A DNA stretch of 33,117 bases, taken from a virus. A program made the position numbers and the translations under genes. This document shows, piece by piece, positions 24,783 through 29,458 of the stretch. The stretch covers positions 1 through 33,117 of IMG/VR virus record IMGVR_UViG_3300049919_000235; one strand, given 5' to 3'. The notes below the pieces were generated by a model, which worked only from the letters and a program-made list of their open reading frames with translations, did not search any database and was not told the origin of the DNA. Positions within the stretch are counted from its first letter, which is position 1; each line of letters opens with the position of its first letter.

Positions 24783-24816
24783 TGAAAAAAGCCTCCACAA
24801 TACATCGGGAGGCTTT
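24783..24816 (-). terminator. Terminator after the large terminase
   Basis: A perfect 9-bp stem (AAAGCCTCC at 24788-24796 with GGAGGCTTT at 24808-24816) has an 11-base loop and is followed by T-rich sequence on both strands. It separates the packaging operon from the tail operon. Confidence 0.87.
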
Positions 24817-24868: not shown

Positions 24869-26152
24869 TTATAATTTTACTTTGACAAAGTATTTAAAGA
24901 AAGAATTTAAGTAATAACGCCAACAATCTAGTAAATGGGTTTGGTGTTTATCCTTATCCTTATCTATTTCGCCTTTTGAATTAACTTCTACGTACTGTAA
25001 ATCTTCTATTAGAAATACGCATTCAGGATGTACATAAATGCTAGGGTGTCTTAACAGCAATGAATTACATAAAACCCTGCTATCTTTTATTAACGGGTTA
25101 GCGCCTGGAACAACTACTTGCCTATCAGTTAAACCAAGTTCTGTTTTTATTATAGTGTAATAGTTTTGACCATCCTTAGTCATGGCGCTTCTATTTTTAC
25201 CTGAGGCATCGCCTGTAACTATCATATAGTAATCACCAAGCTTAGCGTTTATCCTATCACATAATTGCCATATATCAGAGTTTGATAATCTAAATTCATA
25301 CCTCGTGTAAATGTAAGAGTGATCCTTTGGGTGTTGTGAGGCTATGCATGTTATCGGGTCTACGTTAAAGTCAAAGGATAAATAAACTGGCTCTTCGTGG
25401 TTTAGTTCGCCCATATCTTTAATATGGGTTGTAGGGTTAAACGAATAGCAGTATGGCATATCAACATCTATAATATCCCAATTACCTTTAACAAACCGCT
25501 CGTACGTTATTAAATCAAGTGTTTCTAAGGCGTCCTTGTAAGATTGTGGTAAATGTGGGTTATCATCCATCATTGCAGGAATAAAGCAATAAGGTTCTTT
25601 TAGCTCACCTTTTTTACTTGGTGTAATAAATGTTTTTTTTGGCCATCTTTGGGTAGGGTTTCCTGTAACTAACACCAACGTTGGTGGGTATGGTTCTATA
25701 ATGTGACGCCCAGCTCTAAGTTTACACTTTTCAAATGTTTTTTCTTGAAGCTCTTGCCCTTCCTCTAAAAGGAATCCATTAACCTCCAAACCATCAAACT
25801 TTGTCAAATCTTTATCGGATGAAAACCCTTCGCCCATAAACATTATGATTGATCCGTTTGTAAACCTCGCGGTGTTATCTACTATTCTTCCATCCTTTAA
25901 AAATCGTTTGGGGCATATCTTATAAAACGTTGGGTATGTAGTTTTTTTTAATTTGCCTAAATCTTTACGTATAACACACCATCTAGAACCAGGGTAAATC
26001 TTACATAATAATATTAATAAAGCTAAGCCAACGTACGTTTTACCGCCACCAGCAGCACCGCCATAAAATATATATCTAAACACACCACTTAAACAAGCAA
26101 CTAAAAACTTTTCCTGTTTTTCGTGTGGTTTAAATATTACTTCCTTTTCCAT
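24869..26152 (-). CDS. Large terminase subunit (ATPase-nuclease)
   Basis: A 427-residue DNA packaging motor. The ATPase domain has Walker A GGAAGGGKT (31-39), Walker B VNGFLLEEGQ (124-133) with catalytic Glu, and the coupling motif LVTGNPTQ (161-168). The RNase H-like nuclease domain has YLSFDFNVDP (D261/D265), VTGDASG (D315) and HLLDCWRYY (406-414, D409), giving all the metal-binding acids. It cuts concatemeric DNA and pumps it through the portal. It begins inside the stop of the TET/JBP-like gene (TAATG) and so is translationally coupled to the modification cassette. Length and motifs are complete. Confidence 0.96.
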   Translation of the reverse strand: MEKEVIFKPHEKQEKFLVACLSGVFRYIFYGGAAGGGKTYVGLALLILLCKIYPGSRWCVIRKDLGKLKKTTYPTFYKICPKRFLKDGRIVDNTARFTNGSIIMFMGEGFSSDKDLTKFDGLEVNGFLLEEGQELQEKTFEKCKLRAGRHIIEPYPPTLVLVTGNPTQRWPKKTFITPSKKGELKEPYCFIPAMMDDNPHLPQSYKDALETLDLITYERFVKGNWDIIDVDMPYCYSFNPTTHIKDMGELNHEEPVYLSFDFNVDPITCIASQHPKDHSYIYTRYEFRLSNSDIWQLCDRINAKLGDYYMIVTGDASGKNRSAMTKDGQNYYTIIKTELGLTDRQVVVPGANPLIKDSRVLCNSLLLRHPSIYVHPECVFLIEDLQYVEVNSKGEIDKDKDKHQTHLLDCWRYYLNSFFKYFVKVKL

Positions 26153-26934
26153 TAATCTAAGCCTTTGAACGCTTTTAATGGGTAAAATACAAGGCTATTC
26201 CTATAACCATCTTTTTTTGTTGGGATTATCGGCGTTACACCATGGACATTTTTCCAAGCAGGATAAACTAGCATAGAATTGTCACAGCTATCCATGGTTG
26301 CCCAATAATCAGGGACCGTTGTGTTTCCGCCTGTAGCGTTTTGTTTCTTTGCTATGATAACGTTAACACAATCTACCAAGTTACCAGCGTCTCGATGAAA
26401 TGGTGCTGAAATGTTATAATTTGAAATACTAGATGTGAATAGTTTACCGAACCTCCATTTTTCAGGAATGTTTTCTTCTATTATTTTCTTTTGCTTTTCA
26501 TAAACATCAGGCAATATTTTGCGGATTAATTCTTCGGACTCATAGCAAGCTAATATCATTGCCTTTATAAAGTTAGTTGCGGTTGGGTGTGAATGAACGC
26601 TTGATATCGTCGGATAAGGCCTTCTCATATGTGGCTTTGGAGGAACAGAACCAATAATTGTAGAGTATTGAAGTACCTCGTTTTCTTTACTATGTAATCC
26701 TGAAGAACGTTTCATTTCAGACTTTGGAACTCTTTTGCTTCTTAGTTCCTTGTTAGCAATATCAACGTACTTATATAACATTTCAGAATGTTCCTTTATG
26801 TTTCTAATATAAAACCCAATAGGCTCGTCATTAAAGTAAAATATAGAATCCTCTGTTACATTAGGCTCTATTGGCCCACAAATATCACCTATTTTTGTTT
26901 CGTGAGGTATTTCTATTAAATCAATTCTTTTCAT
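26152..26934 (-). CDS. TET/JBP-like Fe(II)/2-oxoglutarate dioxygenase
   Basis: A 260-residue protein whose C-terminal half is a double-stranded beta-helix dioxygenase of the TET/JBP class. It has SNYNISAPFHRDAGN, giving the iron-binding HxD (H180, D182), a GGNTTVPDY stretch (202-210) that matches the 'GGxLxxPxY' strand typical of this family, the distal iron ligand H231 in WKNVHGVTPI, and R245 (YRNSLVFYP), which would bind 2-oxoglutarate. Members hydroxylate methylated pyrimidines in DNA. In phages, TET homologues are known to sit with glycosyltransferases and act on replicated DNA. Here its ATG overlaps the glycosyltransferase stop and its stop overlaps the terminase start. The substrate (5mC or thymine) is not visible here. 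Confidence 0.88.
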   Translation of the reverse strand: MKRIDLIEIPHETKIGDICGPIEPNVTEDSIFYFNDEPIGFYIRNIKEHSEMLYKYVDIANKELRSKRVPKSEMKRSSGLHSKENEVLQYSTIIGSVPPKPHMRRPYPTISSVHSHPTATNFIKAMILACYESEELIRKILPDVYEKQKKIIEENIPEKWRFGKLFTSSISNYNISAPFHRDAGNLVDCVNVIIAKKQNATGGNTTVPDYWATMDSCDNSMLVYPAWKNVHGVTPIIPTKKDGYRNSLVFYPLKAFKGLD

Positions 26935-27665
26935 TTTACGATTTTTTTATAATGTTTAGCCAATTCTTTTAGCTTTAATTTAGCATCAAACCTTCCCCCT
27001 TTATAATTAGGCAAAGCAAAAGGGTGCCATTCTAATATTAATTTTGTTGCTGATATATTGTCTTTATTTATTTTGTAATCCTCGTTTAAACCCCCTTTAT
27101 TTTCTCCTATTCCTGGGGACGAAATGCCGATTTTGTTAAATCTTAAAACACCTTTACCATATTTGATGCATTGTAGAATAAAATCCCTATCCTCCTTTAA
27201 ATCAAATTCACCTCTGTAACGCCATTTTATTTTTGGTATATGAAGTATTACGCATTGCTCTACAGTTGCAGAATTAATACTGTATGTTTTATCTGCTACC
27301 CAAATGAATCGGTTATAGTTGAATCCGTATACCTCGTAATTAAGTGTTTTTATCTTCTCAAACACGTCTAAGAACATGAATCCACTTTGCCTTACATTCT
27401 TACCGTTTATGTATTTGTAAAAAGCAACTACATCATCATCACAAAATATAACCCATTCGTGGTTATTTAATTTGGCATAATCAAGCATGTAATTACGTAC
27501 ATAGGATATACCAATGTTATTTCTTTCTATACTTACTTTATTAGGAACATCGTATAAGTCAATTTCTTGTGGCTCTATAAAATGAATAACTTCTATTCCT
27601 ACTTCTTCAAATATCTTGTAAGTTAAAGTTGCTGGCCTGCCCTTGCTAGGTATGTAGCAAATCAT
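26931..27665 (-). CDS. TET-associated glycosyltransferase (TAGT family)
   Basis: A 244-residue glycosyltransferase of the GT-A-like class described next to phage TET enzymes. The N-terminal signature IPSKGR (5-10), a conserved NIGISYVRNYML (50-61) with a basic residue, then WVIFCDDDV (71-79) with the metal-binding DDD, and a later EFDLKEDRDF (about 153-162) that would provide the catalytic acid, are all present. TAGT proteins are thought to attach a sugar to the hydroxymethyl base produced by the dioxygenase. The gene overlaps the ParB-like gene by 20 nt and the dioxygenase by 4 nt (ATGA), so the three are coupled. Confidence 0.85.
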   Translation of the reverse strand: MICYIPSKGRPATLTYKIFEEVGIEVIHFIEPQEIDLYDVPNKVSIERNNIGISYVRNYMLDYAKLNNHEWVIFCDDDVVAFYKYINGKNVRQSGFMFLDVFEKIKTLNYEVYGFNYNRFIWVADKTYSINSATVEQCVILHIPKIKWRYRGEFDLKEDRDFILQCIKYGKGVLRFNKIGISSPGIGENKGGLNEDYKINKDNISATKLILEWHPFALPNYKGGRFDAKLKLKELAKHYKKIVK

Positions 27666-28257
27666 TCTTTTGTTTTATATCTTTTAGTTTGTCAATTAAG
27701 TATTTTCCTATATACAGATTCTTTTGCCTGCAGTACTTTACTAAATTCTGAGCTTCTTCGTAATCAGATGGCTCAAATTCAATTTGGATAGCCTTTCGGA
27801 TTCCAGTCTTAAATTTATCAATCTCGTTGTTTAGTTCTGAACCGCTTAACAAGCCAATATTTGAGCTCTCTTCCTCTTGATCAATAGTTATATTCATATC
27901 GAAGTCTATAACTATATCATCAAAATACAAATCTATTAGTTCACCGTCAAACTCACCAGCATGAGTATTACCGATTAGCATGTATTCCTTTGCCTCTTGC
28001 TCGGTTAATGGTCTACTTGGTACCCTAACATCAATCTTTTCGTTTTTTCGACCTATCATACCAAGTACGGTTACGCGTTGGTTTCCTGTAATTAAGGTAT
28101 TATCAGTATTGATTACGGGTATTTCAGCAAGGTTAAACTTATTTAAACTATCCTCCAATGCCTTTAGCTTTTCAGGTTTTATTTTACGTGGGTTAATTTC
28201 TGACTTCAACAAGTCCGATACTTTTCGTTTTTCTGTTTTCCAGGTTAAATCTGTCAT
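27646..28257 (-). CDS. ParB/sulfiredoxin-fold protein
   Basis: A 203-residue protein with a ParB N-terminal domain: INPRK (21-25), a helix with LEDSLNKF, then PVINTDNTLITGNQRVTVL (47-65) with the GNxR core of the family, followed by an N-T-H-x-G-E-F-D motif (about 97-104) often seen in phage versions. These can be nucleotide-dependent DNA clamps or nucleases. Homologues are found beside phage DNA-modification genes. I start it at ATG 28257; the frame stays open to 28356 but the earlier part overlaps the upstream gene and does not look like ParB. Its C-terminal half is helical and may bind DNA or the partner enzymes. Confidence 0.83.
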   Translation of the reverse strand: MTDLTWKTEKRKVSDLLKSEINPRKIKPEKLKALEDSLNKFNLAEIPVINTDNTLITGNQRVTVLGMIGRKNEKIDVRVPSRPLTEQEAKEYMLIGNTHAGEFDGELIDLYFDDIVIDFDMNITIDQEEESSNIGLLSGSELNNEIDKFKTGIRKAIQIEFEPSDYEEAQNLVKYCRQKNLYIGKYLIDKLKDIKQKNDLLHT

Positions 28258-28321: not shown

Positions 28322-28606
28322 TTAATATGATAAAAATAAGGTTTCAAATGTATCAAAAGCGCAATCTATTACAAATTCTTCGCCTGAACCCCTTAAAACT
28401 ATACATGTTTTATCTAGTATGTCCGAATCTTCGTATGAGGATGGTCTAAAACCTGCTACATCTTGTGGGTCAAATACAAATGGAACAATTTGTGATTCTT
28501 CTTTTGCATCAATACCTAAATCTTGTAATACATTGCTTACGATTTGAATTGTAGTCTTAAAGAATACTTTCCCGTAATTATTTCTTATTGCCTGTATTTT
28601 TTTCAT
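28322..28606 (-). CDS. 94-residue hypothetical protein in the packaging operon
   Basis: A compact alpha/beta protein with a basic N-terminus (KKIQAIRNNYGKVFF), an acidic middle and a C-terminal hydrophobic end. Positions 42-60 hold PFVFDPQDVAGFRPSS, which may be a small conserved motif, but I do not recognise it. It starts 13 nt after the structured RNA element, so its translation could be controlled by it. Function unknown. Confidence 0.72.
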   Translation of the reverse strand: MKKIQAIRNNYGKVFFKTTIQIVSNVLQDLGIDAKEESQIVPFVFDPQDVAGFRPSSYEDSDILDKTCIVLRGSGEEFVIDCAFDTFETLFLSY

Positions 28607-28616
28607 GTTTTTTTTT

Positions 28617-28777
28617 ATAAATAAGTAGCTCTGTGGCGTCGCACCACCCCTTCGGAATACGAGTAGGTATTGAAACCTAGCTTTTTAGAGGTAGCCAACC
28701 TTCCGATGTAAACCTACTCGTTAAACGGTCATGTCATGCCTTTTTAACGTTGCCCTTCACTATCGGCTACTTATTTT
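28617..28777 (-). ncRNA. Unclassified structured intercistronic RNA element
   Basis: The 177-nt gap between two packaging genes is almost wholly enclosed by a perfect 11-bp helix (minus-strand AAATAAGTAGC at 28776-28766 with GCTACTTATTT at 28629-28619). Inside is another perfect 10-bp helix (28659-28668 with 28712-28721), a 5-bp hairpin at 28633-28647 that includes one U-G pair only possible in minus-strand RNA, and a 6-bp pairing (28652-28657 with 28701-28706) that crosses the 10-bp helix and would form a pseudoknot. It has no ORF and ends 12 nt before the next ATG. No known riboswitch, ribozyme or tRNA signature matches. It could also act as a DNA site for small terminase. Confidence 0.55.
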
Positions 28778-28969: not shown

Positions 28970-29458
28970 TTAAAATTCAATTTCTTTACCTCCAATGACA
29001 AACACCTGTTTCTTAACAGGTTCGTCATTATCCTGTTCCCTGTACCCAGTTCCAGGCTTATTAAACATGGCTTGGTCAGCAACCTTTAAAGCAAATATGA
29101 TGGCGCCTGTGCTTGGTGGGTAATACTTCTTTACAGTTTTTAACTTTGACACTTTAGCTTTACCATCTGCTCCAACGGTGTACTCTTTTGTTTCCTCGTC
29201 CATGTGGAAACCTGTTAGAAGCCTTCCAAAGCCATTAAGGGCTATTTCTTTTAAGACTTCAACCCTTTCGCTCATCGCAATTTTCTGGGCCTCCTTATAC
29301 AGCTCGGAAACTTCGGATATTCTTGTACGCCACTCAAAGAACGTTCTTACTAGTACCCCTTCTGAATTCGCGGCACTTTCAATAGTATGGTTACCTAATG
29401 CGTATATGTCGCATATGCGTTTAGCCTTATCTATTTTTTCATCTTTTGTTAGAAACAC
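28970..29458 (-). CDS. Small terminase subunit
   Basis: A 162-residue protein with an N-terminal helix-turn-helix region (about 23-50; TIESAANSEGV...FFEWRTRISEV), then a Tyr/Lys-rich helix, a short beta hairpin region and a C-terminal segment with VKKYYPPSTGAIIFALK, typical of small terminases, which recognise the packaging site and regulate the large subunit. The start codon is GTG at 29458; no ATG is available in the early frame. It is the first gene after the promoter at 29481-29489. Function from homology pattern and from the large terminase downstream. Confidence 0.85.
   Translation of the reverse strand: MFLTKDEKIDKAKRICDIYALGNHTIESAANSEGVLVRTFFEWRTRISEVSELYKEAQKIAMSERVEVLKEIALNGFGRLLTGFHMDEETKEYTVGADGKAKVSKLKTVKKYYPPSTGAIIFALKVADQAMFNKPGTGYREQDNDEPVKKQVFVIGGKEIEF

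Follow-up and report, generated by a model that had tools for sequence, protein, structure and literature searches.

A three-gene cassette on the minus strand of a phage contig is probably a DNA-hypermodification system in which thymine is hydroxylated within the DNA and then glycosylated, with a ParB-fold protein choosing or licensing the sites; judged from sequence, we give this reading a probability of roughly 0.6. The window analyzed here is the whole stretch of 33,117 nucleotides, a 33-kb viral contig that is possibly incomplete. Its cassette encodes the ParB-fold protein, a TAGT glycosyltransferase and a TET/JBP-type Fe(II)/2-oxoglutarate dioxygenase as an overlapping chain.

The gene identities, the fold and the iron-site residues are observed, as are the conserved order, the exchangeable slot and the C5-methylase-free cassette; from these we infer the substrate, the sugar, the role of ParB, the timing and the benefit. 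Acting on thymine that is part of the DNA, the dioxygenase would hydroxylate its 5-methyl group; the TAGT would add a sugar to the resulting 5-hydroxymethyluracil (5hmU) and so yield a base-J-like O-glycosyl-5-hydroxymethyluracil. The ParB-fold protein accompanies the dioxygenase as its fixed partner and most likely sets where or when oxidation occurs, by loading onto DNA and perhaps with NTP gating. From the position of the cassette between the TerS and TerL genes, we would expect marking late in infection, after the DNA has replicated, with protection of virion DNA as the result.

Cassette layout and protein identities

The ParB-fold protein (203 aa; 27646..28257, ATG at 28257) is followed by the TAGT (244 aa; 26931..27665) and the dioxygenase (260 aa; 26152..26934). 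The coordinates confirm the three overlapping genes of the original prediction: ParB and TAGT overlap by 20 nt, TAGT and TET by 4 nt (ATGA), and the TET stop by 1 nt with the start of the terminase large subunit TerL (427 aa; 24869..26152, minus strand; Pfam Terminase_3, E = 3.4e-11; PHROG 2, E = 1.8e-27). Upstream of the cassette lies a terminase small-subunit-like (TerS-like) gene (28970..29458, minus strand; PHROG 309, E = 3.8e-8). Between it and ParB are two small minus-strand ORFs, one of 54 aa from a conserved phage family (28784..28948; PHROG 4621, E = 4.9e-14) and one of 94 aa taken from the ORF list (28322..28606), which has no significant match to Pfam or PHROG profiles. Just past TerL, a perfect 9-bp inverted repeat with an 11-nt loop (AAAGCCTCC/GGAGGCTTT; 24788..24816, minus strand) is a possible transcription terminator of the operon. 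For parS-like sites, the window offers only weak inverted repeats, and the search for a host via prophages gave only four MAG contigs with mixed labels (beta-proteobacterium, Oscillatoria, Flavobacteriaceae), which is not decisive.

The window TET matches Pfam Tet_JBP (PF12851) at E = 2.9e-7 and 30.3 bits, below the curated 34.9, and PHROG 6059 at E = 3.7e-52; the Tet_JBP profile matches all 43 relatives examined (best E = 1.6e-13). Its structural model (pLDDT 92.8) has CcTet, TET2, CMD1 or NgTET1 as each of its top 26 PDB fold matches, with E-values down to 6.5e-10. For the Tet_JBP identity, a missing match or a match to prolyl hydroxylase had been named beforehand as the contrary outcome; sequence and fold both give TET, and together they rule out prolyl hydroxylase or another 2OG enzyme. 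The protein carries H180xD182, N185, H231, R245 and Y251-x-L253, and the iron triad (H180, D182, H231) and the 2-oxoglutarate arginine R245 are invariant in 18 diverse relatives, actinophages included, and in 43 close relatives. The TET2 motif RISLVFYQH aligns with YRNSLVFYPL, so the TET2 histidine that contacts 5mC is replaced by leucine in the window protein and its relatives.

The glycosyltransferase matches Pfam PF20691 at E = 1.1e-10 and 42.2 bits, above the curated 27.5. It has the Asp-rich DDD motif, in which D77 is invariant in the alignment, and its closest cultured homologue (33%) is a TAGT from Nonlabens phage P12024L, encoded beside that phage's TET gene. Taken as single sequences, neither the TAGT nor the ParB protein had a direct match among PDB sequences.

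The ParB fold proposed originally stands on a match to PHROG 620 (‘ParB-like partition protein’, E = 3.5e-17), on ParB_N (PF02195) matches in 32 of 34 aligned family members and on the fold comparison; the window protein alone has no Pfam ParB_N match. It also matches the ParB part of PHROG 498. The domain plan is an N-domain of the ParB/sulfiredoxin type, which holds the NPR and GNQR boxes, and after it a conserved helical C-terminus (KAIQIEF..YEEA..LV...R...Y.G in the alignment). The top PDB matches of the model (pLDDT 85) are a pNOB8-like ParB-N and CTP/CDP-bound ParB. As for full-length similarity to a canonical partition ParB, HTH DNA-binding domain included, TM-scores by query length do not exceed 0.44, and the part past the N-domain is short and of low confidence.

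All motifs quoted in the original prediction occur exactly as given: GNQR in the ParB protein, IPSKGR with DDD in the glycosyltransferase, and H180/D182/H231/R245 with GG...PDY in the dioxygenase. Profiles, fold and gene order all bear out its TET/JBP-TAGT base-modification cassette within the packaging operon.

Conserved order and an exchangeable tailoring slot

About 80 viral contigs share the order ParB-tailoring-TET-terminase, which is far beyond chance; cultured Prochlorococcus phages have it too. ParB was found at all 72 loci with sufficient upstream sequence, and this near-obligatory linkage makes it plausible that ParB recruits the enzymes.

The content of the tailoring slot varies. 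Across 82 loci it holds a TAGT (40), an FkbM methyltransferase (21), an amino-acid:DNA transferase (ADDT) with a kinase (7), a gene of unidentified type (2) or nothing (9), and is truncated in 3. Slot content switched at least 18 times on the TET tree, and the pair of ADDT and P-loop kinase arose at least four times separately. The seven ADDT/kinase loci nest among TAGT and FkbM loci, and their TETs are about 60% identical to that of the window: L071 and L057 each group with FkbM relatives (99/99 and 100/99, respectively), and L063-L068 fall inside a TAGT-rich TET group (98/98). In other phages, as distinct from these homologues, the ADDT/kinase pair acts on 5hmU. Thymidine hypermodification systems with a 5hmU kinase and/or an amino-acid:DNA transferase are reportedly the subject of Lee 2018/2022; the window cassette has neither enzyme, and a TAGT occupies that slot.

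Target base and rival readings

No cytosine-C5 methylase was found in the window, as originally predicted, or between ParB and TerL in any relative's locus, and PF00145 is absent from ten complete cultured genomes of the wider family (MED4-184, P-HS2, LilMcDreamy, Tonitrus, Terij, AnarQue, Prince, Bolt007, P12024L and HTVC112P). Elsewhere in the fetched stretch, a C5 methylase occurs at 8 of 82 loci (six directly after TerL, including one ADDT locus), so 5mC is possible for those loci. A second TET clade, marked by a YxRE motif, is also without C5 methylases and so gave no positive control for a 5mC TET of the kind in the clade with reportedly proven 5mC activity (Burke 2021). Thymidylate-synthase-type PF00303 did not rise above the cut-off in 17 records, and nucleotide-level hydroxymethylation by a thymidylate-synthase-like enzyme was rejected on this ground.

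The original prediction had left the base open between 5mC and thymine. Thymine is now favored by the lack of a methylase, by the exchange with ADDT/kinase and by the leucine in place of histidine; one oxidase and ParB serving swapped decorating enzymes likewise points to thymine as the target. Thymine is probably the substrate of the window TET.

An unlikely yet substantial alternative is that 5mC comes from a C5 methylase of phage or host origin, is converted to 5hmC by TET and is then glycosylated by TAGT, as in the clusters of Burke et al. 2021. Known phage TET biochemistry on 5mC (summarized in PMC12730594) agrees with this route, as does the T-even phage TAGT that acts on glucosylated hmC (PMC13390438). 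So do the eight relatives with a C5 methylase, six of them carrying it just past TerL. The invariant N185, the counterpart of a second TET2 residue that contacts 5mC, fits as well, but the leucine at the contact histidine position, the swap of TAGT for ADDT/kinase in relatives and the lack of a C5 methylase in every cassette and in the ten complete cultured genomes (phage sequences only) all argue against it.

It is rather improbable that ParB marks the packaging site and that the modification labels DNA for packaging or controls packaging, instead of giving protection. The cassette does immediately precede the terminase genes in the window, in cyanophages and in Mycobacterium, Gordonia and Microbacterium phages, but in Bolt007 it sits apart from the terminase gene, and in HTVC112P and Tonitrus several genes intervene. 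Many phages carry ParB or ParB-methylase genes near terminases, so the position of the cassette may be historical, and terminase adjacency may reflect operon position only.

Another dioxygenase substrate (6mA, RNA or protein) is very improbable: CcTet, the top fold match, has also been crystallized with 6mA DNA, but the dioxygenase is partnered by enzymes that tailor DNA bases (TAGT, ADDT, 5hmU-type kinases) and the cassette has no adenine methylase.

Phage TETs are usually explained via 5-methylcytosine; the methylase-free ParB-TET lineage is widespread, with exchangeable tailoring enzymes, and suggests that hydroxylation of thymine in DNA, as practised by eukaryotes for base J, is used by many phages. 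The lineage would also make the ParB-fold protein a general partner of DNA-modifying enzymes. A broader proposal is that this phage family makes glycosylated 5hmU, a phage counterpart of base J, from thymine in replicated DNA; an obligatory ParB-fold factor would load on DNA in the manner of CTP-gated ParB clamps and license the dioxygenase, and the last decoration could be exchanged between sugar, methyl and amino acid. This proposal is tentative, and we would sooner expect parts of it to fail than all of it to hold. The swapped slot predicts differing products (sugar, methyl ether and amino-acid adducts), and cultured relatives (P-HS2, mycobacteriophages and Arthrobacter phage Bolt007) make thymine hydroxylation directly testable.

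Comparison with known systems

The window cassette is a variant of known phage DNA-modification systems. Prochlorococcus phages MED4-184, P-HS2 and MED4-117 (CPAG_00033-00037) share the order ParB-tailoring-TET-small gene-TerL and have a TET 53.6% identical to that of the window over its full length, but carry an FkbM methyltransferase in the TAGT slot and would thus be expected to make an O-methylated hydroxymethyl base. Existing annotations call genes of the Prochlorococcus cassette ‘DNA methylase’ and ‘queuine tRNA-ribosyltransferase’. The first label is wrong, the cyanophage gene being ParB_N, and the second, a PHROG/RefSeq label, is name transfer only.

Actinophages Tonitrus, LilMcDreamy, AnarQue and Prince also place ParB first, with TET next or close and then the terminase, and their TETs have an aliphatic residue at the TET2 histidine position, as in the window. 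They differ in carrying ADDT and a P-loop kinase without a TAGT, and in a TET about 25-33% identical to the window's; the authors of the Tonitrus study propose thymidine hypermodification (PMC11955845). Arthrobacter phage Bolt007 has the order ParB-TET-TAGT-like-PIG-L deacetylase, a separate pairing of the window-TET lineage with a glycosyltransferase. In flavophage P12024L (gp26-gp28), TET adjoins the closest cultured TAGT, but the TET belongs to the other (YxRE) clade, an N6/N4 methylase follows and the genes are about ten genes upstream of the terminase.

Phage clusters with TET, a C5 methylase and a glycosyltransferase are said to be described by Burke et al. 2021 and Iyer et al. 2013. They resemble the window in joining TET to a TAGT glycosyltransferase that acts on DNA bases, whereas the window cassette is without their C5 methylase and has ParB as a fixed partner. 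By pathway logic, the window is likened to kinetoplastid base J (JBP1/2 and JGT), with predicted thymine hydroxylation in DNA followed by glycosylation, although that pathway is eukaryotic and uses another glycosyltransferase.

Gene order and protein identities

Three minus-strand genes, encoding a ParB-fold protein (27646-28257), a TAGT glycosyltransferase (26931-27665) and a TET/JBP-type dioxygenase (TET, 26152-26934), are real and lie where the original prediction placed them, directly ahead of the large terminase gene (TerL, 24869-26152), downstream of which is a terminator-shaped inverted repeat (24788-24816). Translation of ParB, TAGT, TET and TerL is probably coupled as a chain, since the genes overlap by 20, 4 and 1 nt. 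Upstream of ParB are a small-terminase-like gene (28970-29458) and two small ORFs; in the gap separating these two ORFs, an imperfect 31-nt palindrome (28719-28749) is a possible protein-binding site. The host may be a member of the Bacteroidota: TerL has relatives among phages of Bacteroides, Polaribacter and Flavobacterium, GC content is 32.5%, and the A-rich leaders lack Shine-Dalgarno sequences.

Profile searches and structure modelling bore out the predicted families. The glycosyltransferase matched the TAGT profile above cut-off, and the dioxygenase matched Tet_JBP at E=2.9e-7, below the curated cut-off; all 43 aligned relatives also matched Tet_JBP (best E=1.6e-13). The TET model (pLDDT 92.8, pTM 0.90) has only TET-type folds (CcTet, TET2, CMD1, and NgTET1) among its 26 best PDB matches. 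The TET sequence has the residues of the iron site. The ParB protein matched PHROG 620 (E=3.5e-17), and 32 of 34 aligned family members matched ParB_N. Its model (pLDDT 85) resembles pNOB8-like ParB-N, CTP- or CDP-bound ParB and sulfiredoxin, mainly within the N-domain, and does not establish a canonical DNA-binding HTH; its NPR and GNxR boxes hint at CTP binding. The ParB C-terminus (27646-27800, alignment A3) carries a motif, KAIQIEF..HYEEA..LVKFWR...YVG, that is more strongly conserved than the N-domain and through which partner enzymes might dock.

A conserved locus with an exchangeable slot

One scan of viral contigs gave 147 relatives and 80 retained loci. Adding Prochlorococcus phage MED4-184 and the window itself brings the total to 82, many of them near-copies, so that counts are of contigs rather than independent events. 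ParB lies upstream of TET in all 72 loci with enough upstream sequence; in each of the ten loci without ParB, TET is ≤621 nt from a contig end. TerL follows TET within the fetched stretch in most loci. Cultured phages MED4-184, P-HS2 and MED4-117 carry TETs 53.6% identical to that of the window, and the first two share its ParB-slot-TET-TerL order. More distant TETs occur in Mycobacterium, Gordonia, Microbacterium and Rhodococcus phages, with ParB as gene 1 upstream and terminase downstream. Arthrobacter phage Bolt007 (L199:2929-6242) encodes, in this order, ParB, TET, a TAGT-like glycosyltransferase whose profile match (E=1e-4) falls below cut-off, and lastly a PIG-L deacetylase; its terminase lies elsewhere. 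This gene set suggests an N-acetylated sugar that would be deacetylated once on DNA. A second TET clade includes that of Pelagibacter phage HTVC112P, where the order is ParB-TET-FkbM; most of the clade lacks such a ParB in the vicinity, which 4 of 109 members have.

The slot between ParB and TET holds TAGT (40 loci), an FkbM methyltransferase (21), an amino-acid:DNA transferase (ADDT) with a P-loop kinase (7) or a 301-aa protein without family assignment (2), and is empty in nine and truncated in three. ADDT was identified by Pfam in loci L057 and L071, and in L063-L068 by weak similarity to L057 (E=1e-5, one comparison) and an adjoining P-loop protein. Slot content switches at least 18 times along a TET tree whose bootstrap is not fully settled and which has some long branches; its well-supported branches give at least four ADDT/kinase origins. 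Class-II amidotransferase and GNAT-like genes accompany ADDT and kinase in L057 (1117-3407) and L071, suggesting further base decoration. Elsewhere, a 598-aa protein, in part nucleotidyltransferase-like and in part kinase-like, which may supply a nucleotide sugar, lies between TAGT and TET (L051:4127-5923), and a tandem pair of TAGT-like genes is flanked by ParB and TET (L072:7973-10780).

Thymine or cytosine as the target

ADDT and 5-hydroxymethyluracil (5hmU) kinases reportedly act on 5hmU in known phages (Lee et al. 2018, 2022; cited in PMC11955845). Because ADDT/kinase repeatedly exchanges with TAGT and FkbM, beside TETs ∼60% identical to that of the window, the slot types appear to share one 5-hydroxymethyl base, for which thymine-derived 5hmU is the simplest candidate. 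A thymine origin requires no methylase, matching the absence of cytosine-C5 methylase (PF00145) from the window, as originally noted, from the ParB-to-TerL interval of all loci, and from ten cultured genomes.

C5-methylated cytosine is retained as an alternative target, as eight loci have a C5 methylase within the fetched stretch, six of them immediately after TerL, one with an ADDT cassette. This position 3' of TerL is a variable slot (six related contigs: L041, L055, L061, L062, L071, and L025). In TET2, the His of Y-x-H contacts 5mC; the window TET aligns Y251-x-L253 there and the second clade has Arg, so this residue differs by lineage. N185, which corresponds to a second 5mC-contact residue of TET2, is retained.

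Proposed pathway and relation to known systems

On the thymine reading, TET would convert thymine to 5hmU, onto which TAGT would transfer a sugar, presumably late, judging from operon position; the mark might act on DNA awaiting packaging, as originally proposed. ParB may recruit or license modification, given its near-obligatory linkage and the fusion of related ParB domains to N6/N4 methylases in Clostridia phages.

Public labels for these families vary: phrog_6059 and MED4-184 TETs are annotated as 'queuine tRNA-ribosyltransferase' and the cyanophage ParB as 'DNA methylase' (CPAG_00033 and CPAG_00035, L082:15790-17914), and the second TET clade as 'SNF2 DNA repair protein'. An actinophage homologue, Mycobacterium phage Prince gp2, is labelled 'thymidine hydroxylase' in GenBank. 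TET/TAGT clusters and thymidine-hypermodification cassettes with TET are already known or proposed; new relative to the open-licence library searched are the methylase-free ParB-TAGT-TET-TerL layout, its exchangeable slot and a predicted mark resembling base J, the glycosylated thymine-derived base of kinetoplastids.
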